The notes beneath the pieces were generated by a model. It ran no database searches and was not told the origin of the DNA. It was given only the letters and a program-made list of their open reading frames with translations. DNA of 64,000 nt. It comes from Apostichopus japonicus. Lineage: Eukaryota; Echinodermata; Holothuroidea; Aspidochirotida; Stichopodidae. Positions 1,157 through 21,274 of this stretch are shown piece by piece. The DNA is taken from the NCBI RefSeq assembly GCF_037975245.1, contig NC_092570.1, positions 15,741,001-15,805,000 of the forward strand. Reading direction: 5' to 3'. A program made the translations under genes and the position numbers. The number at the start of each line of letters is the position of its first letter. Position 1 is the first letter of the stretch.

Positions 1157-1171
1157 CACTGAAAACATAAA
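1157..1171 (+). repeat. Left terminal inverted repeat of the CACTA-like element
   Basis: The 15 bases CACTGAAAACATAAA match the reverse complement of 21260-21274 with no mismatch. The CACT start is typical of the CACTA superfamily. Similarity stops abruptly after these 15 bases. Confidence 0.85.
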
Positions 1172-1179
1172 TTGGTCAT

Positions 1180-1600
1180 ACCGACTAATATTAAATTAGT
1201 CAGTATGGTGCCTCTACCGACTAAGCAACTGCTAGTCCATCATTACCGACTAGTTTATGCCTAGTCAATCCTGGCTGGACTAATATAACTGACTAATGTT
1301 AAATACTTCACCGACTAATCGCATTAGTCAGTCAAACTAGTCTGTATTCCCCTGACTAGTTTGTGACCACCGACTAATTAACGAACTAGAATATAAATTA
1401 GTCGGTCATTCATCGACTAGAGTTTGACTAACGTAGCGCTAGTCAGCGTGGTGCCTCTACCGACTAATTTAAGATGCCGCCTCTAGTCAGTGATCCCCGA
1501 CTAAGGTAGGCCTCTAGTCAGTGATAACCGACTAAGGTAAGGCCTTGTCAGTAAACAACCGACTAAGCTAGTGGACTAACTACTGTACTAGTCAGTCCAT
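1180..1600. repeat. Left subterminal repeat field (CCGACTA / ACTAGTCAG motifs)
   Basis: About 420 bases are dominated by short degenerate motifs in both orientations: CCGACTAA, ATTAGTCAG, CTAGTCAGT and ACTAGTC, more than ten in all. In plant CACTA elements such subterminal arrays are binding sites of the second element protein (TNPA). The same role here is inference. Confidence 0.75.
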
Positions 1601-5800: not shown

Positions 5801-8344
5801 CTTCATAGTCTACTTCCCAAATTAGCCCCCCCCCCACAGACAGAATCATACAGGAAATCAAAATCAGTGTGTGTGTCGTTTGGCTCTCCTGAGCAGTGAA
5901 ATAGCTCCCGTGAGAGTTGGAAAAAACAAAGACGGGATGGGAGCCGCTTATTTCTACCAAAGACCAAAGTGGCTCCCGTCGAATCGGCAGTGAACTCTTG
6001 CCCTTGGAAACCATCCACGTCACGTGGCAGATATAGCGATATTTGTTTGAAGATCTATTTTCATTCTGATCGTTTTATACACATGAACTGGTGAATGTTA
6101 TAGCCTAGTGTGAATTAATTGCTACTGCCTTGGCAAATACAGCAGTTAATACATGTATAGATATCAAATGACTCTGAGAAACTTGAGATTGATAATTAAT
6201 ATCAGATATAAAAATTAAATTAATGTCCCAAGACACAAATGAATAGGAATTGGATGCTTCTTGACGGAAAAGTTGCTTAGATCCCTTTAGCCGCCAAGCA
6301 AGAAATTTGAATTACCTGGTCCTCGTCAAATAACCAGGGGTATTTGACCTGGATTTCATCCAACGTTGGTTTGGGCTTGGATGAAATGATCCATTTTCTC
6401 CTGTCTGCCAGGGTCTTTGTCATGGAGCAGGACACGGTCTTGTAATCTGGTTGTTTTCTTCTCTTTTCTGCATTCAGCCACCCTATATGGGTGGCTATGG
6501 TCAAGTCATCCTCCGAGGCAGGGCGACTGGGGAGGTAGTTTTTCATTCCCCAGTAAGTTGGGGGGTCCACTGTAGAAGGTGGAGGCGAACGTGGCTTCCG
6601 TTCTGCTTTCAACTTCTTCTTCTGCACAGCCTCAATCTTCAGGTCTAGACGCTTACGCTTATTCTGGAATTTGTACTGCAGTCTATGCTTCCATAGCATC
6701 TGAAAAACCAAAACAAACAGAAATGAATGTTTACACAATAGGCTGTTGCATGTGGCCCCAAAACAATGAACATTACCACCTGGGTCATTCCATATCAAAT
6801 CACCAGATTTTGGGGTATGTTGTAGTTCAACATTTTTGAAAAATTCCCAAATTTATTGCATGAGTGGACCACCATGAAATAAGCATATTCTGAAAATTTC
6901 AGTTGCATTGCTTTACAATTGGCCGATTTATCACACTTTGAAATTCCGCAATTTGTCGCCACCATGGCAATTTGGCATTTTCTTGACTTTTGAGGTCTCA
7001 TTTCTCAGCAATTACACATTCTACTACATTTCTATTACAGATGCCCATAGAGTCTAACCCATAGAACAGGAAAATAAAAAATTAGGCTACAAAAATATTG
7101 TCTTGTGGAGTTAGGTCAACTTAAAAGTGTCAAAATATTTAATTTTTGTACTTTTCACTAAAAAATGTGCTATTTTTAGTGATGAATTGCTCCTAAACCA
7201 TTGCTTCAGGGTACTTGATTCTTTCAGAGGTTATTATGTCTAGTACAAACATTACAAAATAATGATTACAATGCTTTCCTAGAATATGTTTGCAAGTTGT
7301 GCAACTCTAAAGTTGCTATTTCATGCTGCGATTCAGCATGAGGTAGGGGTTTTGATGCCAATTTTTTACCAAAGTAACCATGTTAGAGGTGTCAGGGTTT
7401 ATACTTTATTAATAAGTATAAAGTTCTTACACATTAGCAAATTTCAGGGTTCTAGCTGTTCTCAATATTAATTTATGAAGTTGTTAAGTTGCTCCAATGT
7501 ACAAAAGAGGTCGTTTTTGACGGCCAATAACTCAAAACGCGTCAAATTAAAAAAAAATTGATAAATTTTTCTGGAAGAGATATAGTACCACCCTGTTTGT
7601 ACAAAAAATTTCAGGAGGGTGTTTTGCCTGTAAAGCAATGCAACTGAAATTTTCAGAATATGCTTATTTTATGGTGGTCCAATCATACAATAAATTTGGG
7701 AATTTTTGGAAAGGGTGCAGCAACAGCCATCCGTGATTTGACACGGAATGACCCACCTAGAAAAACACTGATTACATGATGTCCTTCTCCATCAGGGAAA
7801 TTCCTATTCAGGTGGCGAAGCGATTATATAACAGGGGCATGATAGCCATGAATAAATGGGCAGTTATTCTTGTTGTACTGTCACATGTTAGAACTATGGC
7901 AATATGAACCAATATGGCCAATTGGTAATTTATTAATTTCTCAGACTGATCCTCACAAAATGGATTAATATTGATTATATTGTTGATACTGTAAGAAATA
8001 AATTAATAATGATGGATATATATATATATATCCTATGTACAAATACCTGGCAGAGTTCTAGCCATGAAAAGTTTCGAACCAGGTGGAAGATAGATGACAT
8101 AAACATCTGACATGTCTACCGAATCGAGTGCATTCATGTCATTCGGTACTCCTTGGTAAACATATCACAATGACATATATATATACATATATCCTATGTA
8201 CAAAACCCTGGCAGAGTTCTAGCCATGAACAGTTTTGAACCAAGTGGAAGATAGATGACATACACATCTGACATGTCTACCGAATCGAGTGCATTCATGT
8301 CATTCGGTACTTGGTAACATGTCACAATGATGGAGATATATATA

Positions 8345-8376
<32 letters not shown>

Positions 8377-11300
8377 GATATATATCCTATGTACAAATAC
8401 CTGGCAGAGTTCTAGCCATGAAAAGTTTCGAAACCAGGTGGGAAGATAGATGACATACACATCTAAAATGTCTACCGAATCGAGTGAATTCATGTCATTC
8501 GGTACTCCTTGGTAACATGTCACTTTTGTTCATTGGAAAGCTGTTTGGTAGGGGTACATTGTTGTGAACATTGCTAAGTGTTAGTTACTTAATGAGGTAA
8601 ATATGTAAATTGGGCAGGGTCCGAAACATAAATGGCCCCAAAATGCATTACCAACAACAACAATGAGTTTCCTATGTACTATGCACACACTATTTGTGTA
8701 TAGCAATGCCTGCAAATACATTTTTTTTATGAAAAACTTGAAATGTTGACACATGACTATGATACATGACTATGGATCCACTCGTGTCCGCTATCATGGT
8801 GGACTTTTGGACTAGAAACCGATCCATTTTGCAGAATCCGATGTTAAGTTATTTAACATTTAGTTAAGTTATTAATTGAGCATATACCAGCCATCAATTG
8901 GCGACTTGGCCGGGGACAGGGGGAGGGCTATAATTTTATCAAGCGCCCCTAATGGGGGGGGGGGATGTATTGATATTAAAACATACATGCAGTACCTTCT
9001 TATCACCAAGTGGCATATTTGCTGCAGGTTTGCACATCTGTGGGAACTTCGCATGTATCTTTTCAACCATGATGTCGTATTCAGTCTTGGTTGGATAGCT
9101 GGTTGGATATAATGAAAGAATATATATATATATATTTATAGTGTGTAGACTTTAGTGGAATCAGAGGCAAGCAACGGTGATCCAGCACATGCAAACACTA
9201 CAAATGTGAGTTATTCTAAGTACTAGCTGTGGCAACAGGGTGGCCATGTAAATAGGTAGGTAGGATAGAGATTTAGATGCATTTATGGCTGAGCAAATGT
9301 CTTACTGCTGACAAGGGACCACCTTACCGCTGACATGGGACAACCGACTAGGCAGGGTAGGAATTAGTTGTGAGATGTGGGTTGAGGGTGGATGTGGGTA
9401 GGCCCATAATATCTTTTGGGACTGATTAGCTATTATTTTCTCTTGAAGTGCTCTGCCTACTCTAACTATAAGGACAATTTATATTTTGCCCTCTTGGCCC
9501 TACTCTGGGGCTATTTCAGAAGTGGGGGGGGGGGGATAATCACCCACAGCCCAGTATATAACCTACCCTGCTAATAGGGATTGAAAATGTACCTCACCAG
9601 GGCTTGACAAAATTTTCAAATAGGGCACAGCGTATGCCTGGTCGGTGGATTCAATTTATTAGGGGCACCGACAGCGCAAATGAGTGAAATTGAAGGGCAG
9701 GACAGTGCAACACTAAGGGCACCGACAGCACGCTTCAATTTCAGTTTTGCAATTTTTCCATGGTAGAAAGACCTAAAGTGCCCCCCCCCCATGGTGCCAG
9801 GGATCAATCAGGAACTGCGTTGTAACCCAAAAATGATTCATAATTAAGTATATATACACAAAATCAGTCAATTGTAATTGACTAGCCTATGTGTTTCATA
9901 ATATTATATTCCTTAGCTATATTGTGCAAATATATTTGGTGACGTACTAGCCTATTTCTTTTGTTTATATTTTACCAATCCAAGAGCGGGAATCTTTGGG
10001 TGATTTTGATCAAGTGTGTCAAAGTAATGGGCCAATTTTAAGCCAACCTCCTAGTTTTTATTGAGATTCTAGTTGCAATACTGTAAAGGCCTAGCCTAGG
10101 CACGAAAAATCGCTACTGAGTGTTACTGTTGATGTGTTAGAATTAGGTTGTAAGACTTAAGACAAAAACCACCGTTTTGCTAGACCACTTACAAATTTTT
10201 CGATTAAAGTGTGGCTTTTTGCATTGAAAACATATTTTTCCCATATCTATATGATAGTTGGCATAGTTTATACAGAATGCAAGTTACCTACTTTTTAACA
10301 CGATGATGATACTGGGAATCAAATTCCTGCACATCATGTGCACTGACGAAGTGAACATAATACTATAAAACACATCCTAACACACTCTGAATAATCTAGT
10401 GTTAGGCAAAGTTGGAAAACCCCTGGGCTATTTTTATCAATGGGAATGATCGGTGCAGGAGTGAAAAGGCCTAACGTTTGGATCGATAAAAATATAATTT
10501 ATCAGACGGAAAATAAATCAGTTGCAACAGCAAAATTAAGCGGGAAACAACAGAATTTCATTGACGATGTCATACATGAAAATTCAAGGAACTTTAATAA
10601 GGAAGCCTAGGCCATTTTCTTGCACAATTCCCACTTTCTCTGTCTATTTTCCACTCCGGAGTTAACACTGATACAAACTAGAAATATAATATCGTCAGCC
10701 TCATGGATGTGCATTACTTTTCGCACGCCTCAAAACACAAGGCCTGTTAATGTCGCTAGCGTTATGGCAGGGCTAGGGCTGGCTGTGAAATTTTGGGGTC
10801 CAACGATGCAATTTTGATTCATAAATCATCAAAACACTGTGAAAAGAGTGTTATTTTTGTCTTTTTGGACCCCTTAGGTGAACACAAATCTAAACTTTGG
10901 GTCAAACCCTCCCAAAAAGGTGTCTATATGACCCCGAGACCACTTGTAGCGCCAACCCTGCGTTATGGTTTCGCTCTACTCACTATATGGAACATTACTA
11001 ATACCAGGGATGTAAGTGCAGCCCAAAAAAAAACCCCAGAAAACTATTCGGAGAAACCGGGGGAATGTCGTCTTAACGCATCCTACTCCTAGCTCTGAAT
11101 ACTTACGCAATATCATTGTTAGGCTAGCTCAAAAGTATTAGCGCTAACACATACCCCTAGTTCTGACTACTTACACACTATCGTTATGTTAGGCTAGCTC
11201 CAAGTAACAAATACGTCGCAGCGAAATCCGGAATAAAAAACAGTCTCACATTTGAAAGCGATCACGAATATTGACTATCATATGCGTATCCCGTAGATTT

Positions 11301-14300
11301 AGCCGCTCACAAATATCACAAGCGTTATTTCCGAAACTTATGTCGAGCACCAGCAGTTACGAATCAACGTGAATTAGGCAAGGTTTTTCAACGACAGAAA
11401 TGAGCTATGGCGATTTGAAGTTCGCACGTACGCAACGATGTTCACATGGCACACACAATGTTGTACAGTGCAATGCGATGTGTAACAGGAAATGGTATTT
11501 TGGTTGATCGATGAGTGAAAATTGAAGTTAGCTTGCTGCAACGGGCCAGGCATTTTTGCCGCGTTGTGTCTTTGATATTTGTACAATTTTGTGGAACTTT
11601 ATTGGAATTAAAAAAAAACGGAAGACTTACATCCCTGTAATACTAGAACGAAAGCGCAATATACAATAAGACAACGATTCGCGAGAATGAAATTTGATCT
11701 AATTTTTTTCCACAAAATATTCGCATTTTCGTCATTTCCAGGGAAAACAGGGAGACACTTTAGGTGAATGAATAATTTGAAAGGCACCGACAGCTTTTTT
11801 CAGTAAGAAGAAAGGGCACGACAGCAAAAGCCGTCGGTTTTGTCAAGCCCTGCCTCACAATCACCAGTTGACTAAGTTTGACAATCTCTACTTGCCCCAA
11901 CAAATTTCAATTAGTCCCCAAAGTAGTCCGGTATCAGGGCTGCTGCAGTCAGGGTGGTGACACTTGCTAGCAGGTATCATTTATTAAAGGCTGTCACATC
12001 ATTTCAGACATCTTGGAACTACATAACCCCATAAGCTTTGGGCTAATCTTTCAGTATTTTAAGTACTGGCCTCCACTAAAAGCAATAGGGACCATGTACT
12101 CACTATGGGTATTCCACCTAATAAGTATGACATGGGTGGGGCCATATAATAGCACCAAATACTGTATGTTCTTTCCCCCATATGGGCAACCTATATGTCA
12201 AGTTCGAACTTTGTAGACATTTGGGTTCTCCAGTTATCATGTTTACAAGGGCGTCACAGACACACACATATGCACGCCAGCGTGACTGCATAGATTCCTT
12301 CCGCCTTGGCAAGGAATAAAAAATGCCAGAGAGAATTAGACATACTACTTACTAAATTCCATGGTTCTTGGTAACTGCTGAATAGATGCTGTCTAGGAAA
12401 TGGCCCCTTTCTGCAGTATTCAGTGTGTCCCCACCAAGTTTCAGTTTTGAAGTTATTAAAGGAGGCTGGACTGGTACAGCAAACCCAGTGATCCAACTGA
12501 CAGAAGCTTGTCTGCCTTGAGACTCTGTTGACGAAGAAGTTGCTGCAACATCCGCTACAGGTTTGAAATTGATTGCAGCATCCTCGGCAGTATCCTCAGC
12601 AACATCATCAGCCGCATCATTCTGGGGCTGCTGTACAACAGGTGGTAGTGTGTCAGTGCTGCAAAACAATTTAATGACTATTCACCTGAAATGGGATTAA
12701 ATCTGGCTTACTGTCCTTGCATTTAACCAATATCTAAAACATGACTTTTCTTTTACTGCTTATCGGTTATCACAATGTTTTTCAATACCAGAACTACACG
12801 TGTTAGCAGGGTTATATATAGATATAGAACTGAATAGGCTGTTGAACTCGTTTATACAGTAGGCCTACACCAGGGTTGAGAGAGGCAATCGAGGCAAAGT
12901 GCCTTGCCTAAGGACACAATGGAAAAGCTGAACAGTCCTGGGAGGATTCGAACTAGAAACCTTTAGATCTGTAGTCCAGCGAAGCTCTACTGACTGAGCT
13001 CTCCACCCTCATTTCATCATTAGTGCCACACTTACTGGTACATACCTTGCATCATTTTCTATCTGCTCAATGTCACCTTGGTTGACATTGATAGTGACAG
13101 GAAACACCACTGGCTCTTCTACCCTCACCAGAATCTTTGTGGGACCTGGAATTTTCTGATCCTCCTCTATGTCTACGTAGTCTTCAAAGTCTTTGTCAAA
13201 GAACTGGAGGATGAGAGACTTGTTCTCCAAACCAAATAAACCAGATGCAGCCTTCTCTATATCAAGCTTGGTAGCTCCTTCTGCATCACCCTCAATATGA
13301 ACCCCTTTTTGGTTCATACCATATAACAACAACAATTTGTGTCTGAAAGACAATTTAACATACTAAATAAATTTGAGAAGTGAACCAACCAAATCTAACT
13401 CGTCTACATCATTTTATTTACATTGTACAGTAAGTACATAGTTTCAAAGCTGTATTTGGTCACAAAGTCACAAATACATTTAACCACAAAAGTGCATTTG
13501 ATATCAATAATATTTTTATCTTTTTTCCTTTCCTTCATCATACAAATTTAATATGCGCAACAAAGTGGGTGTACTAAATTTACACCCACTGTACTAATGT
13601 ACTAAATTTAAAAATACAAGTATACTGAGAGAAGTGTTTTAAATAAATGTCAAATGGTTGGCATTGGTCAGAATTGGATATGGCATTCAAATTGATTACA
13701 AATACTAAAGAACTGAAGACCACAATAATATTGTTCATGGCTCAGAATTGCATTGAAATTGAACATTGTAAATAAACAACTATTGACAGGCTAAAACACT
13801 GGCTAAACCTTGGCAAACCTCTAAAAGACAATCAGTTTAAGTTTGCTACAATTATCTACTTTATTCTTCATCATCACTGACTGTTGATGATTGTGGTAGA
13901 ATAGAGAAGAAATGATGATGCTATGCTGGTATGCTATGCTTCGTACAGAGGTGTAAAATGGGCATACCTGTTAAAATGCCTTCCATAGAAAAAAAAGCTT
14001 ATTTAATTCAAAGCCCAACATCATAAAAATGGAAAAATCACCACAGCCAAAAAGCTACCAACTACCAAAATTTACACAGGGAAGTACAGACTACACATAG
14101 TCACCTAAAACAGGACCTTTTGCAGGCAAATAAACTCAACAAGTACGCTAACTATCTCTTAAACCTAACCTGTAAATTGCAATTATCAGGGTTATATGTG
14201 TGAACCTAAAACCACACCAACAAGCAATATCCTACCATCTTTAAAAGACACACTAACAGGAGACATGAATTGGCTTTGATTCAATAAACTGTTTTCAGTT

Positions 14301-17300
14301 CAATGCACAAACACACATCAAAAATAAAATGCGTTCGCCAAATAAAGCATATGTTTGTTTATATAAAACAGCAATACCATAAAGAATGCAATTTTTAATT
14401 TTTTGACAGCTCCAAACCCGGCATTAATTTGCTGAAACACCTTTGGCCATGTTTTCGCTTACATTTAAAGTATTCTGTAGCCAGTGAATAGGCTAAAAAT
14501 CCTACAAGGATCTATTTAGGGGACCAAGACTTCCCTTTTGCTGAGTCGAATCACACAGAGGAGGAATCGTACTCCACACATCGCCCTTTAAACACAGCAT
14601 AGAGCCTAAAAGTGTCCTTTTAATCACCCTAACCCTGAAAAAAAACCACAAGTGAAGAGTCAGCTGTATTCAGGGTTCATTTTAAGTGGGATCGCACTTT
14701 GCGATGTGAATATTCACTCTGCGATGCAAGACGGCACTCTGTATCGCGCAACTGCCACAAAAAAAAAATAGCCTAACATACTGTAGTAAAGGCAAATTTG
14801 GAGCCTATACCATCATTTGTTTGGAAGATCTTCAAACGATGTCTAATTTCATTTTGATCTATTTATACAGGTGAATGAAATTAATAGCCTAACACACTGT
14901 AGTATAGGCAAATTTGGAGCCGATACTGTCATTTATTTTTATTTTAAATAAAATTCAAGTTTGTAAACCAATTCTGGATTAGTTTAATTAAATAAATTAC
15001 TGCGATAGTGTTACATAATGTTCATTATTAATGTTTCAATTTTGATTCACTCATCCAGGGCATTCAAAAGTAATACCCAAACTAGCTAGCACTAAGCGCC
15101 ATTCTGTTATCTTCCACTTATGATCCTAACTGCAGACCTGTCAACCTGTTTGACCCCAAAATAGGGAGAATAAAAATTTTCAGGGCCAAAAAACCGGGAG
15201 AATAAGGGGCAAATAGGGAGGTTGGTAATTTTCAACTGAAATTATATAAATACTCCTAAATAAATAGTCTACAGTACCGCTCATGTATAACTGGACATGT
15301 GTACGCGCACAGGATGAAGACGTATAAACAAGTACAATCGCGTATAAAATCGTTGACAAACAAATTGCCGCGTAGACACCTCGTATAATCCCTGTACGAC
15401 TTTATACGCAGGTTATGCTATTGTGCTCAATGAATAGGGATTAAAGTCGCCGAAAGAATTAGTGAGATGTTTGAAACAGCCGTTTCTTAAATCGTAGTTT
15501 AAGACGTGATATTCACCTAGCATCGAAGAGGACGCAGGTAAAGTGTGTGCCTGCATAGAACTTAACTGTTTTTTTCGTATACAAGTAGCCTACATGCGAA
15601 CTGCACACATTAGGTACGCCGCATATACAAACAAGTGACAACTTGCGTTTATTAAACTGGTGCACCAAGGCATATGCACAGTGCACGCCGTACTACTGTA
15701 CTGTATTCAGGACTCGACCAAGGCCAACGTACTATAACGACATTGGGCGAAGTCTGAGAACTGACAAAGCAGCCTGATATTGGTTGAGAGTCCCGCACAG
15801 CACTGTGCCAGCAGGGAGTTGTTATGGAACTCCCTGGTGTCAGTCATAACGTGTTTGTAAACAATCAATCTATTTTTAGATTACACTTATTACCCGAAGG
15901 GCATATGACTAACTGTTGGCTATTTTCAGAATTTCGCAAGTGATGAAACATTAAAAAACCGGGAGAATAGAATATGAAACCGGGAGGCTGGGAGATTTGG
16001 GTAAAAACCGTGAGTCTCCCGGTAAAACCGGGAGAGTTGACAGGTCTGTAACTGCAAAAAAAATAGTTCTATAAAGTATAGCCTAACTATCACTGGTAAT
16101 TCTTAACCTAACACACTGTAGCATAGTTAATTGTGGATCCTATACCAGGGATGTAAGTTTTCTGTATTTTAATTACCACAAAAATGGTATTTTCTGGTGC
16201 ATGAACATACTCCAGGTAATGAAATTGATAGCACCATTTTGCATCTCAGCACTCATTTGAGGGCAAAAATTTCAAAAGGGGAGGTGGGGACACCCACTCC
16301 CCCTCAACTACAGCGTGTACAGACAAAAGTTACTTGCTAACCATTTTGACCAAACTGCTAATCAAATCGGGATTTTGATTAGTATAAGTGGTATACCTTC
16401 CCCACCATTTACAGGGTACATCTATGATCTATCATAGATTTCGCACATAATGTCTTATTGAAATCAGATTCATACTACCAGTCTTGTATACACCAAGAGG
16501 ATAATAGTTGTGCAAATCAGACGGTCTGAATAAGACAAGTGTATTACCAAATTGAACATTGTAGGCATGCAAGTGGGATATATACTCTGTATGTTCCCCT
16601 AATTTACAAAGTAAATAAGTATGCCCAGCTATAATAAAACACATATCAATCATGCCAAATTTGTAACCAACATCCACTATTACTGCCAAACCCTTTGAAT
16701 ACCAGGTACCATTGTATGACACCTTGCCAACTGAATACACTGATTCATGCTCACCTACTAGGGGCAATATTTCATCTTGTATGTTAAGTGGCAAAAGTCT
16801 CACTGGAAACATTTCACCCTTCGTATGAATTGTATCTTCAGTCAAGAAGGTTGTACGACCACGGAAAGTGGCTTGCATGAATTCATGCCTTTGTGCTAGG
16901 GTCTTACATAAATTCTTTCTGTTCTTGGTAGTCTTTGAAATTTCCTTGAAGTAATTATGCTTTCCTTCAAAGCGCAATGTCCATGTATTAATCAGTGGAC
17001 CAAACTGCAATAGCACTGCTGGATAGTGTATCAAATAGTGAAACTTTGGTTTCATAGTTACATTATGAAAAAAGGTGTAATAGGAAGTTAGAAAATCCTG
17101 TATCAAATCATCCAGAAACATTGAAAGTGCTGGTGTGACCTCAGCAGAAGTACAGTATTCTGTCACATCTAACAACAACAACAAAACTTTCCATGAAAGG
17201 CAGCCAATAGGAACCAAGTGGCCTACCATTAATGGTAACATACGGTTAAAGCACCACATCTGACAGGCTGTCTGCTTGACTCTGAACGTATAAAGATTGT

Positions 17301-19573
17301 TGGACATGACGGAGGGTTTATTCGTACGGTCAGATGCTTCATATGGAAAAGACTTGATCTGTTGATTCAAGTATTTAAGGGTGAAATACTCTTGTGAAAC
17401 ACAATCCTTGATTACTTCTCCAACTACCTCTGGAAGAACACCCTCAAACAAATCATGGGCCAGGTCCGGTGGTAAGCCATTTGTTACATGAAAATATGTT
17501 AGTTGGTTGAGACAGGAAGTGCCCTTTACCCCATATGTTGACATGAGTGCAGGGTTCACATGAACTGCTTGAGTCTGTTGATCATATACTTCCTTGGACC
17601 TCAATATCAATTTATCTGACAAACAAAAATGATTCTTAAGATTTGCCGTTGTGACATTACACATTCGACATACCCTCCCATGGTTAAAATGTACTTGAAA
17701 CCCTCCGATTTCATGGGCAGCCAGGTTATCTGCCGACAAAAAAGAAACTGTACCACGAAACGTATGCTCCATACCATCTTTAGAGAATTGAATGCCATCT
17801 TTTTCAAGAACTTTCAGATCTTCAAGAAGAGGGAAAAAGACATTTTGCAAACCATATGTTTTTACATAGAGTGATGGGCACAGTGACACCAGTTGAATAT
17901 TGCGCAATTTCGATCTATGCATTGGGTGCAGATTACCAAGCACAAAATACACTGCAGAAAATTTTAGCATTTGAACATGTGTTCCAAGGGGGTTTGCCAC
18001 AGTGAAGTCATCATAGTATAGCTGTACTTGTAGACTAGATGGCTCTTCAGAAAAAAGTGCATTGCTCTTAAATTTGGAACCATCACAAAAGTCACTCAAT
18101 TTATGCTCAATATGACTTGCATGCCCGCCATAAACCTCTCCCAAGATATCATCTGATTTCAACAATGCTTTAAGAGTTTGAAGAATTGGGATGTACTGCA
18201 TTGTATGTTCCTTGCCATTATCATCATCCCTGCCCAGCACATATTCACATGGTTCAACAACATTGTACTGATTTATCATGTATTTCTGAAGATTTCTAGA
18301 ATTTGAAAACAAGTTGAAGGCTTGTTCCAACTGACCCTCTTGAAATATTTCTGCCAAACCAAATTCATTAAGACAATCGATGTTGGTACCCGACCTCATC
18401 AGCATATTGTTGAGATCTTTCTCTAGGTTTTCTCTGTGTATCTTGAGAAGGTCGACAAATTCATTTGCTACGAATGAACAAGCTGCCTGTGGCGTTTTAT
18501 GGATTTCCCTCAGCTTCATTAAAAACATTGATACTTCCCTATTAACATCAAATTCAGGGTGAGGTATTTCTATATTTTCTGGATTTCCATTTTCAACTAC
18601 ATGTTCATTTTGATCTACTTGTACTTCAATTGGAGGAGCATTTAGGTTATTCCGCCTTCCATACCAAAACTCATGTTTTTGCCTTATATGACGCCTAAAT
18701 ACACGGATATTAGAGTAACTCTTAGCACAATTGTTTATCCCACAAACAATTTTAAAGTTGGGATCATTTCCATGTTCAAACCTGTAATGCTTAATTAGTA
18801 CTTCAAACTCTGGAGTACTAAAGTCACAGTGGCAACAGCTGTAAGCCATTTTACTAAAGTCCAACCATATGCAAAATAATACAGCCCCTATGACTGCCTC
18901 ATGATGAGGAATATGTCTCATTTATATCCCACAAGTTAAAAAAACAATGATGAACAATTGAACATTATATACTGTGCACTTGGAAGTTGGACATGGTTAT
19001 GCAAGCATTAATGGAAAGTGTAAATGCACGAGTACAGTCAATGTAATTGTGACCTTGTGACAATACCTTATCTTTCACATACCGTAGGCTACTTTATTTA
19101 GCCCACAGAATTTGTAATTACTGTAAGTAGCAGTGTACTACTGTTCTGCACTATATGTACATGTACTAGGCTAGGCTACATCTGTAATTTGACATACCTG
19201 TGAACAATCAGAATTAGATTAAAAGTTTAAAAACAAATACTGACATCTCTTTCATACATTTATTTAAACATTATTTTGACTGTATACCCTGCAGTGATAG
19301 TAGTAGTAATACTAGTAGTAGTAGCCTACGGTACACTCTTCAGTACTCAGTAGGCCTGGCTATAATTAGCCTAGCCTATGCCACATGCACTTGTAACATT
19401 AGGCTATATACTTACTGTATACTATCAGTATATAGTATACAGTAAGTATATAGCCTTATTTTACAAGTGCTTGTGCCAGTTGTGGCCTATGCTAGGCCTT
19501 TGCTATGATGACAAATAAAGTTACATCAATTGATCAATTTTACTCACCGAATACTTCCTTCGATCTCCATCAT
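2868..19573 (-). CDS. Second transposon gene: PB1-like / SAMD3-like protein, 555 aa, 8 exons
   Basis: Exons in transcript order: 19573-19548 (coding part), 13342-13046, 12658-12353, 9098-8996, 6699-6316, 5568-5385, 4642-4557, 3149-2868. Every junction has GT-AG ends and matching phase, and the sum is 1668 bp with a terminal TAA. The N-terminus is a PB1-like fold region (begins near RHKLLLLYG, acidic end around residues 60-80). An Asp/Ala-rich linker follows, then YPTKTEYDIMVEKIHAKFPQ, a basic stretch starting WKHRLQYKFQNKRKR, and RRKWI before KYPWLF. The C-terminal third resembles the tail of vertebrate and invertebrate SAMD3-like proteins. No SAM domain is visible. Intron 1 contains the whole transposase ORF. 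By analogy with maize TNPA it may bind the subterminal repeats, but that is inference. The family name is from memory; the exon structure is the stronger claim. Confidence 0.68.
3223..3300. repeat. Perfect 31-bp stem, 16-base loop hairpin
   Basis: 3223-3253 (CCAAAATGTTCATCATCATC...) and 3270-3300 are exact reverse complements separated by 16 bases. It sits in the last intron of the second transposon gene, 74 bases upstream of the final exon's acceptor. The 78-nt size resembles a microRNA precursor or a minimal foldback; nothing else supports either role. Confidence 0.7.
3409..3588. mobile_element. Small hAT-like MITE (about 180 bp)
   Basis: The left end CAGTGGTGGCTC and the right end GCCCCGCCACTG are imperfect inverted repeats. 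The flanking octamers are CCCATAGA and CATATAGA (6 of 8 match). It is probably an old hAT-type nonautonomous insertion; the ORFs drawn across it are not genes. Confidence 0.4.
6782..7754. mobile_element. 973-bp MITE with about 130-bp inverted repeats
   Basis: The left arm starts GGGTCATTCCATATCAAATC and the right arm ends GATTTGACACGGAATGACCC. Homology continues inward through matching copies of AATTTCAGTTGCATTGCTTT (rc on the other side). The flank ACCT is present on both sides (6778-6781 and 7755-7758), a likely 4-bp target duplication; CACCT (5 bp) is also possible. It lies in an intron of the second transposon gene and has no coding capacity. Confidence 0.75.
8031..8522. repeat. Three-copy tandem repeat, about 145 bp unit, with TA microsatellite spacers
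   Basis: Copies at about 8031-8176, 8191-8333 and 8385-8522 share TCCTATGTACAAA, TGGCAGAGTTCTAGCCATGA, GATAGATGACATA and GTCTACCGAATCGAGTG. They are separated by TA/TATG-rich spacers, the longest at 8334-8384. The apparent ORF across copies two and three is a by-product of the repeats. It is intronic within the transposon gene. Confidence 0.75.
9598..11852. mobile_element. 2.26-kb nested element with CAGGGCTTGACAAAA termini
   Basis: The ends CAGGGCTTGACAAAA (9598) and TTTTGTCAAGCCCTG (to 11852) are inverted repeats. The 6-bp flanks CCTCAC (9592-9597 and 11853-11858) are identical. Subterminal GGGCACCGACAGC motifs occur at both ends. No long ORF is present. The CAG start suggests a hAT relative, although classical hATs duplicate 8 bp. 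It carries another element at 11005-11637. Confidence 0.7.
11005..11637. mobile_element. 633-bp MITE nested inside the 2.26-kb element
   Basis: CAGGGATGTAAGT at the left and ACTTACATCCCTG at the right form inverted ends. The flank TAATAC is repeated on both sides (10999-11004 and 11638-11643), again a 6-bp duplication. A lone copy of the same terminal sequence occurs at 16146-16158 without an identified partner. Confidence 0.7.
12870..13010 (-). mobile_element. tRNA-derived SINE
   Basis: On the minus strand the head reads GGTGGAGAGCTCAGTCAGTA with an A-box-like GCTCAGTCAGTAGAGC. A B-box AGTTCGAATCC lies at 12944-12954, and a tail containing GTGTCCTTAGGCAAGGCAC is typical of marine-invertebrate SINEs. 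It is in intron 2 of the second transposon gene, just 35 bp downstream of an exon. Confidence 0.65.
14760..14950. repeat. Local direct repeat around GCCTAACAYACTGTAGTA
   Basis: Two copies (about 14770 and 14887) share CTGTAGTA, GGCAAATTTGGAGCC and CATCATTT or a close variant. A third, more diverged copy lies at about 16108-16145, beyond the MITE at 15133-16048. The MITE therefore probably split a preexisting tandem cluster. Confidence 0.5.
15133..16048. mobile_element. 916-bp MITE with CAGACCTGTCAAC ends
   Basis: The left end CAGACCTGTCAAC and the right end GTTGACAGGTCTG are inverted. The 6-bp flank TAACTG is identical at 15127-15132 and 16049-16054. Subterminal AACCGGGAGAAT motifs recur at both ends in opposite orientation. 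It inserted between the transposase stop codon and the next exon of the second gene, so it is inside the long first intron. Confidence 0.78.
16432..19573 (-). CDS. CACTA-type transposase with N-terminal C2H2 zinc fingers
   Basis: The main exon is a single uninterrupted 829-codon ORF (18921 down to 16432). A strong donor after 19548 (CG|GTGAGTAA) pairs with an acceptor just before 18853 (ACTTTAG|T). It joins ATG-ATG at 19573 to the ORF in frame, giving MMEIEGSI-R-K then the ORF's M25, about 815 aa. Numbering by the ORF, two C2H2 fingers are C29-C32-H45-H50 and C60-C65-H78-H83. The catalytic region shows YYDDF (303-306, D304/D305), SADNL with D398, a CRMC knuckle (418-421), LPPDLAHDLFEGV (483-495) and RFEGKHN with E652. 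These resemble the tnp2/TNPD-like transposases of animal EnSpm elements; the DDE assignment is by inspection. It is expected to bind and cut the element ends in the nucleus. Without the upstream exon, translation could start at M1 or M25. The ORF is intact. Confidence 0.82.
19370..19500. repeat. Inverted repeat with a perfect 23-bp core hairpin
   Basis: 19401-19423 (AGGCTATATACTTACTGTAT...) is the exact reverse complement of 19434-19456 with a 10-base loop. Less perfect pairing extends outward through ACTTGTAA/TTACAAGT and GGCCTA/TAGGCC. It lies just downstream of the shared exon's donor, at the start of intron 1, so a stem in the pre-mRNA could affect splice choice; this is speculation. Confidence 0.65.
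19548..19573 (-). other. Shared first coding exon of both transposon products
   Basis: Reading the minus strand, ATG-ATG at 19573 is followed by six more codons and CG, then the donor GTGAGTAA. Phase 2 fits both the transposase acceptor at 18853 (CG+T, then AAA ATG) and the second-gene acceptor at 13342 (CG+A, then CAC). An upstream ATG at about 19610 opens a second frame, MFTGTANSFPRYDGDRRKYS, which leaves the exon in phase 0 and does not fit either acceptor. Confidence 0.6.
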
Positions 19574-19690: not shown

Positions 19691-20082
19691 GCTGTACTAA
19701 CTACTATATATATACTGTAAGCCACAGACGTGCCACCGGCCGGCCGCATGATCGAACGCATGAACGGGATAAATCTGCATATTCAATGCTTCGTTGCAAT
19801 ACGTGCTTATGATTGGTGCACTAAATTTTAACGCAAAACGTTGACCAATTATGTGTGGTTATTTTTACCGCGAAAAGTTGTGTAACGCTCTAGTACGAAA
19901 AACCAGTGCAGAGTCCCTGAAGGGGGTTGTGCAATATGTGTGTGTGTGATTAGAGTTTTATTTATTGCAATTTGTTTTCTCTAAGGCCTATTGGAGATGG
20001 GCGACTTTTTGTCAGCCTAATGGGTTTAGCTCCTGTTACTCTTTTTGTTCTTTTCAATTTGTTACGTCCATAATATCATCTC

Positions 20083-21012: not shown

Positions 21013-21259
21013 GTCGGTTAACTTAGTTGGTTACTTAGTCAGTCTGAAATGCTAGTCGGTCAAGTTAGTCAGTCCAGACTTGCTAGTCGGTCGAGGTTAT
21101 TGGCGTTAGTCAGTACCCATAAACTAGTCGGTCGTAATTATTCCCTAGTCGGTCTTGACTGACTAATTGCCGTGACTACTCTAGCACACTTTAGTTAGTC
21201 GGTAGTGACTGACTAGTGTACTGACTAGCTATTCACTAGTCCGTAGCGTTACTGACTAG
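21013..21259. repeat. Right subterminal repeat field (TAGTCGGTC / GACTGACTA motifs)
   Basis: About 245 bases carry the same core as the left field, mainly as TTAGTCAGTC, CTAGTCGGTC and TGACTGACTAG. The right field is shorter and more regular than the left one. Its orientation mirrors the left field, as expected for the two ends of one element. Confidence 0.75.
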
Positions 21260-21274
21260 TTTATGTTTTCAGTG
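21260..21274 (-). repeat. Right terminal inverted repeat of the CACTA-like element
   Basis: TTTATGTTTTCAGTG is the exact reverse complement of the left terminus. It closes the right subterminal repeat field and marks the promoter-side end of the element, because both genes read toward lower coordinates. Confidence 0.85.

Follow-up and report, generated by a model that had tools for sequence, protein, structure and literature searches.

A probable start exon, upstream of the transposase gene, for the accessory protein of sea cucumber CACTA transposons

A complete CACTA transposon of the sea cucumber Apostichopus japonicus carries a second gene downstream of its transposase gene, and the start codon of the second protein is probably supplied by a very short exon that lies beyond the transposase gene, upstream of it, as judged from the sequences of this element and its relatives. 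The element lies in the 64,000-nucleotide stretch of contig NC_092570.1 that we analysed (the window), and both genes read on the minus strand. In the arrangement that we favor, and consider fairly probable, the two genes stand under one leader, intron 1 of the second gene spans the transposase ORF, the second start codon is in exon 1, and splicing switches between the products. The initial annotation had placed the transposase ORF within intron 1 of the second gene, as in maize En/Spm, and this now appears most likely, given that families A and D of these elements have no in-frame ATG ahead of the first domain of the second protein and that families A-D have both a phase-2 acceptor and a candidate ATG exon upstream.

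The transposon occupies positions 1157-21274 of the window (20,118 bp, ~20.1 kb). Its terminal inverted repeats are CACTGAAAACATAAATTGGTCA on the left (1157..1178, plus strand; the 3' end of the element in the gene sense) and CACTGAAAACATAAACTAGTCA on the right (21253..21274, minus strand; the 5' end), and the two ends share a perfect 15-bp inverted repeat, CACTGAAAACATAAA. This repeat begins with CACTG, one of the two starts, CACTA or CACTG, that characterize the superfamily. The target duplication, 2-3 bp long in the superfamily, has 2 bp here: it is CA/CA at the window element and TG/TG at its sibling on contig C17 (L038; two copies in all), and the subterminal arrays likewise expected are present at both ends. 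The motif CYGACTAR occurs 32 times in the window against 4.9 expected, and 30 of the 32 occurrences lie within the two end arrays, 18 at 1181..1595 and 12 at 21035..21259. The C17 sibling has the same left end as the window element, and separate stretches of the two copies align at 98.1-99.4%; a segment of ~970 bp (window 6782-7752) has no counterpart in this alignment. A CACTG start is also found in one copy of family B (L053) and one of family C (L054), and in copies L031 and L032 the first bases of the end differ from CACTG.

Relatives of the transposase were sought in the genome (671.6 Mb, 35 contigs), where 56 of the 435 candidates were scored; at least 74 matches resulted, and 30 of them were taken as loci. 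We chose 12 families, represented by one or a few copies each: A (the window element and its C17 sibling), B, C, D, E, F, G, H, J, K, M and N. Certain loci were not placed in a family, for example C16:43847320, C17:16090171, C17:6483910, C9:10113971 and C15:24339206, and for family J the flanks of the C16 copy, whose transposase is interrupted by one stop, were combined with the protein of the C1 copy. Transposase identity to family A is 61% for B, 46% for C, 37% for D and 31-35% for E, F, G, H, J, K, M and N. Outside this genome, viral contigs gave no match and genome contigs gave eight pattern matches, none of them a confirmed relative; weak matches to 29 phage records (E-values of 0.03-0.2 for the 20 listed) were judged to be chance.

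The transposase ORF of the window element (16432..18849, minus strand) opens at its own ATG, in the context AAAATGG, with a C2H2-like N-terminus. D, D and E positions that we take to be the catalytic residues are invariant across the 12 aligned families. Matches to the Pfam family Transposase_21 (PF02992) are below the cut-off for A (E=0.052), C (E=0.071) and D (E=5.8e-4), and the transposases of J, G, K and N gave no match to it at 0.1. Families F, G and H have a similar ORF of ~80-100 residues between the transposase stop and the second ORF, in another frame (L040:140-409, L042:278-589 and L044:194-433), which is perhaps a transposase 3' exon.

In all 12 families a second ORF lies downstream of the transposase on the same strand, from 109 to 3,090 bp past its stop codon. 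The second ORF of families E to M has its own ATG 0-5 residues ahead of the first beta strand, and that of N has its own ATG ahead of a SAM-like domain. In families A-D this position, just after the Met of E-M, is taken by a phase-2 acceptor from which the domain of the second gene starts, so that two bases from an upstream exon are needed. On the transposase tree, A-D form one side of a branch with support of 80/81, and one of 500 label shuffles was equally clustered; the placement of D has only moderate support, and whether B and C should carry the phase-2 label is uncertain. The grouping is compatible with the phase-2 start having arisen once in A-D.

The predicted exons of the second gene in the window element all lie on the minus strand. 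Putative exon 1 (ATGATGGAGATCGAAGGAAGTATTCG, 19548..19573), with its phase-2 donor GTGAGTAA, has candidate counterparts in B, C and D, and the predicted intron 1 (13343..19547, 6.2 kb), which is supported by the comparison of families, would contain the entire transposase ORF. Exon 2 (13046..13342, donor GTATGT), also delimited by family comparison, encodes a PB1-like N-terminal domain that begins at the junction. It is followed by putative exons 3 (12353..12658, donor GTAAGT), 4 (YPTKTEYDIMVEKIHAKFP, 8996..9098) and 5 (the YWGMKNYLPSRPASEDD region, 6316..6699), the last of which resembles the second ORFs of C, K and M. The phase of exon 3 agrees with its neighbors, that of exon 4 agrees with those of exons 3 and 5, and the downstream phases agree throughout exons 2-5. 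When the second ORFs of K and M were used as Tblastn queries, exon 5 of the window element was matched, and the K query also matched exon 2. We take the second protein to be SAMD3-like and its first domain to be PB1-like. Pfam searches found no convincing family in four second-gene stretches of A, with one chance-level match at E=0.024, and no family in the second ORFs of K, M and H. The sole domain evidence comes from family N, whose second gene (L052:786-1064) opens with a weak SAM match that is below the cut-off (PF22931, E=6.7e-4). This match and the presumed SAMD3-like look of the second genes raise the possibility that vertebrate SAMD3 is akin to CACTA accessory proteins.

Families A and D carry the argument for the upstream exon. 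No in-frame ATG is found ahead of the first domain of the second protein in either of the two copies of A, nor in any of the 17 D copies in which it was located (of 18; L027 was not located by the tag used). The gap between the transposase and the second gene in D measures 109 bp and has no ATG in any frame. Judged on these sequences, D, the high-copy family, needs the same upstream-exon arrangement as A. In C, an in-frame ATG lies nine codons ahead of the domain (MKIYILYSR) in all four copies (L007-L010), overlapping the pyrimidine tract of the would-be acceptor, and spliced and unspliced N-termini would differ. In B an in-frame ATG lies 12 codons ahead of the domain (MITLFWTCLIFS) in three of four copies (L003, L005 and L006) and is lacking in L004. 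The C copies and most B copies would therefore have no need of an upstream exon, and either start could be used in them.

Translation of the second protein could also begin at an internal Met, with exon 1 a non-coding leader or unused. In favor of such a start, eight of the 12 families use their own ATG before the first strand or the SAM-like domain. Against it, the candidate in A (MNQKGVHIE, residue 9) would delete the first beta strand that is aligned across families, and D has no internal Met before residue 61. We regard an internal start as very improbable.

The gaps themselves bear on a further alternative, in which the two genes are independent, the second has its own promoter and a start exon past the transposase, and the 26-nt exon is a chance occurrence or a transposase leader. 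The 3.1-kb gap of A contains 63 ATGs, which favors independence, as do the in-frame ATGs just before the domain in C and most B copies and the fact that chance phase-2 ATG exons are not rare. Neither the A gap nor the D gap, however, contains a start exon with a fitting donor at a score of at least 3, and D has its short, ATG-free gap. The B gap has one weak start-exon candidate (donor 3.2). Two candidates in the C gap were rejected, as both end in TG and would form a TGA stop once joined to the A at the acceptor. A search for intron-less copies of the D junction, allowing up to two mismatches, found none. On balance, independent genes seem rather unlikely to us, and the upstream exon remains the preferred source of the start codon.

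The acceptor at 13342, TTTCAG/ACACAAATTG, is at the 95.7th percentile of AGs, and the second-gene acceptors of A-D range from the 95.7th to the 98.6th. Of random 60-nt windows, 13.7% contain an acceptor as good as that of A at 13342, and the corresponding range across A-D is 5-14%; the second-gene acceptor of B is preceded, at a distance of 34 nt, by an AG with a better score. Sequence features thus put the 13342 acceptor moderately above chance, with a phase and a position that recur in B, C and D.

The small exon proposed by the initial annotation is located exactly as described: ATGATGGAGATCGAAGGAAGTATTCG is found on the minus strand at 19573-19548, before the donor GTGAGTAA, and leaves in phase 2. 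It had been suggested that sibling copies should conserve the exon and its donor, and both are kept in the two copies of A; a phase-2 ATG exon is likewise found upstream of the transposase in the other three families. The exons read MMEIEGSI+CG in A, MSDLDTQLDSSLCSRQ+TT in B, MSLV+CG in C and MSQ+GT in D, at distances from the transposase ATG of 698, 3,553, 1,936 and 348 bp, respectively, and in B and C the 5' end of the element is ~430-460 bp away from the exon. With L006 and L010 left out of the counts, the exon is kept in 2/2 copies of A, 3/3 of B, 3/3 of C (one substitution, MSLV/MSSV) and 18/18 of D. The compared copies within families are at least 98% alike (for D, 3 of 17 copies were compared with L013), and in C the exon is no better conserved than the intron next to it, so retention of the exon is no evidence of selection.

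An exon of this kind is also easily obtained by chance. Among 400 simulated upstream regions per family, an equal or better phase-2 ATG exon appeared in 112 for A, 122 for B (with the value of the rival B candidate exon as the threshold), 41 for C and 65 for D, and three of the eight own-ATG families have an upstream phase-2 exon candidate. B has a second upstream candidate with a better donor (4.0), and A has another candidate inside the transposase ORF (3.6). Because chance exons are frequent, the exon by itself is weak evidence, and more weight falls on the requirement for a start codon; the case rests on need and fit together in A and D, and what is seen in B and C is consistent with it. 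If the RNA of family A starts at the TATA-like run near 19712, weak out-of-frame ATGs would precede the exon 1 ATG.

The initial annotation had exon 1 leave from a common donor to two coding acceptors, one at 13342 and one at 18853 that would make it the N-terminus of the transposase. Both joins are in frame as described, AG/TAAAATGGCT (AG/TAAAATGG) at 18853 giving RKMAYS and TTTCAG/ACACAAATTG at 13342 giving RHKLLLLYG. The part concerning 13342 is supported by comparison, in that the phase-2 acceptor recurs in B-D and A and D lack an in-frame ATG ahead of the domain; the part concerning 18853 is not supported. The acceptor there, AG/TAAA (18850..18855, minus strand, first exon base 18853), is unremarkable and not conserved: it is at the 71st percentile of AGs, and at least six better AGs lie upstream of it within the same 698 bp. 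Its frame fit to exon 1 is a one-in-three event, and the nearest acceptors in B and C, strong ones found 125 and 315 bp ahead of the ATG of the transposase, are out of frame with exon 1.

A point in favor of two coding acceptors is that D has an AG in a compatible frame 10 nt ahead of the transposase ATG, but this AG is at the 49th percentile, and no good acceptor was found in the 348 bp from the exon-1 donor to the transposase ATG. Among the families with their own ATG, H, N, G and F show acceptors of fair quality at 19-58 nt from the ATG chosen for the transposase, on its 5' side, which also accords with use of donor 19548 for both a transposase starting MMEIEGSIRKMAYS and the second protein. 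Against this, the transposase N-termini align from their own methionines (MAYSCC, MRFNCC, MVNFPCC and MASLQMQSC). Given the weak, unconserved acceptor and this alignment, the R-K-M-A-Y-S join is probably a coincidence of frame, exon 1 does not appear to be the N-terminus of the transposase, and we consider a coding role for both acceptors unlikely.

Our preferred arrangement, with a single coding acceptor for exon 1 at 13342, predicts the transcripts, the shared promoter and the splicing switch as follows. The complete element would hold two genes on one strand behind one 5' leader, with the start codon of the second protein, TnpA-like in position, carried by a coding exon of 26 nt near the 5' end. 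Removal of intron 1 would take out the whole transposase ORF and join exon 1 to the first beta strand in phase 2, and the second protein of A would most likely be made only upon this removal. The transposase would be translated from its own ATG on RNA that keeps intron 1, is spliced to an internal acceptor or starts inside intron 1. Reading through a GTRAGT donor in phase 2 invariably meets TAA or TGA, so unspliced exon 1 becomes an upstream ORF: where intron 1 is not wholly removed, the exon-1 reading would stop inside the donor (CGG TGA in A) and exon 1 would act as a short upstream ORF. Leaky scanning or reinitiation may then bring ribosomes to the ATG of the transposase, unless an internal acceptor or a start further downstream serves instead. 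In this way, splicing of intron 1 would switch between second protein and transposase.

Splicing has been demonstrated in maize En/Spm (tnpA, tnpD), whereas it is predicted in the window element, and the second protein here, presumably SAMD3-like and without a Pfam match, is not TNPA as judged by Pfam search. The likenesses are a CACT-type terminal inverted repeat, subterminal repeats and, as a prediction for the window element, a short product that skips the transposase ORF in the intron-1 region; Spm/En is described as having a large ORF in the intron-1 region and a 2.5-kb transcript made of 11 tnpA exons (PMC2613891). The same paper describes a soybean CACTA element, Tgmt*, of 20.5 kb with one long precursor and a mosaic transcript in which the beginning of exon 1 is spliced to exon 11; this is a plant element, and its splice donor is inside exon 1, which carries the tnp2 domain (PMC2613891). 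Tam1 of Antirrhinum, also a plant element, is reported there to produce two transcripts, of which the shorter combines exons that lie far apart (PMC2613891).

An animal relative of CACTA elements with alternative splicing has been in the literature since 2006, when spliced transcripts with and without the transposase were described for SmTRC1 of Schistosoma mansoni (PMC1636069). Like the window element, SmTRC1 is an animal element with a 2-bp target duplication, and it has alternatively spliced RNAs and tandem ORFs on clone B4 (PMC1636069). It differs in a terminal inverted repeat beginning CCC rather than CACTG and in second proteins reported to have no detectable similarity to others, and section 8 of the paper mentions no coding micro-exon ahead of the transposase (PMC1636069). 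Among the papers listed by a search of open-licence literature, none describes the layout proposed here.

The A. japonicus elements offer a testable case of animal CACTA elements with the nested two-product layout known from maize, and families A and D (the latter with at least 18 copies), in one chromosome-scale genome, are places where the junction can be checked by RNA-seq. If the families that keep their own ATG are contrasted with A and D, and with B and C, to which either start seems available, the relocation of the start codon could be mapped onto a tree, and the recurring accessory gene gives a handle on a TnpA-like partner of animal CACTA transposases. Tentatively, we suggest that in one animal CACTA clade the accessory start codon moved into a leader micro-exon upstream of the transposase, that one splicing decision, with a phase-2 GTRAGT donor and a tiny upstream ORF, sets the product, and that vertebrate SAMD3 may share ancestry with the accessory genes.

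Several observations concern individual copies and intron 1 itself. Family D has at least 18 copies (L013-L030), and L014, L017 and L030 are 98.6-99.8% alike to L013 over their main alignments, which points to a recent burst of this family. Two B copies, L031 and L053, have upstream DNA that is 92% alike in opposite orientation, as if both had entered one kind of repeat. Within intron 1 of the window element, a small nested repeat with the ends ACAGACCTGTCAAC..GTTGACAGGTCTG lies at 15130-16060 and is probably common to the C17 sibling, since the gap length in the sibling is nearly equal. Soon after exon 1, at 19379-19478, the intron contains a hairpin with 47-bp arms that are 91% complementary.
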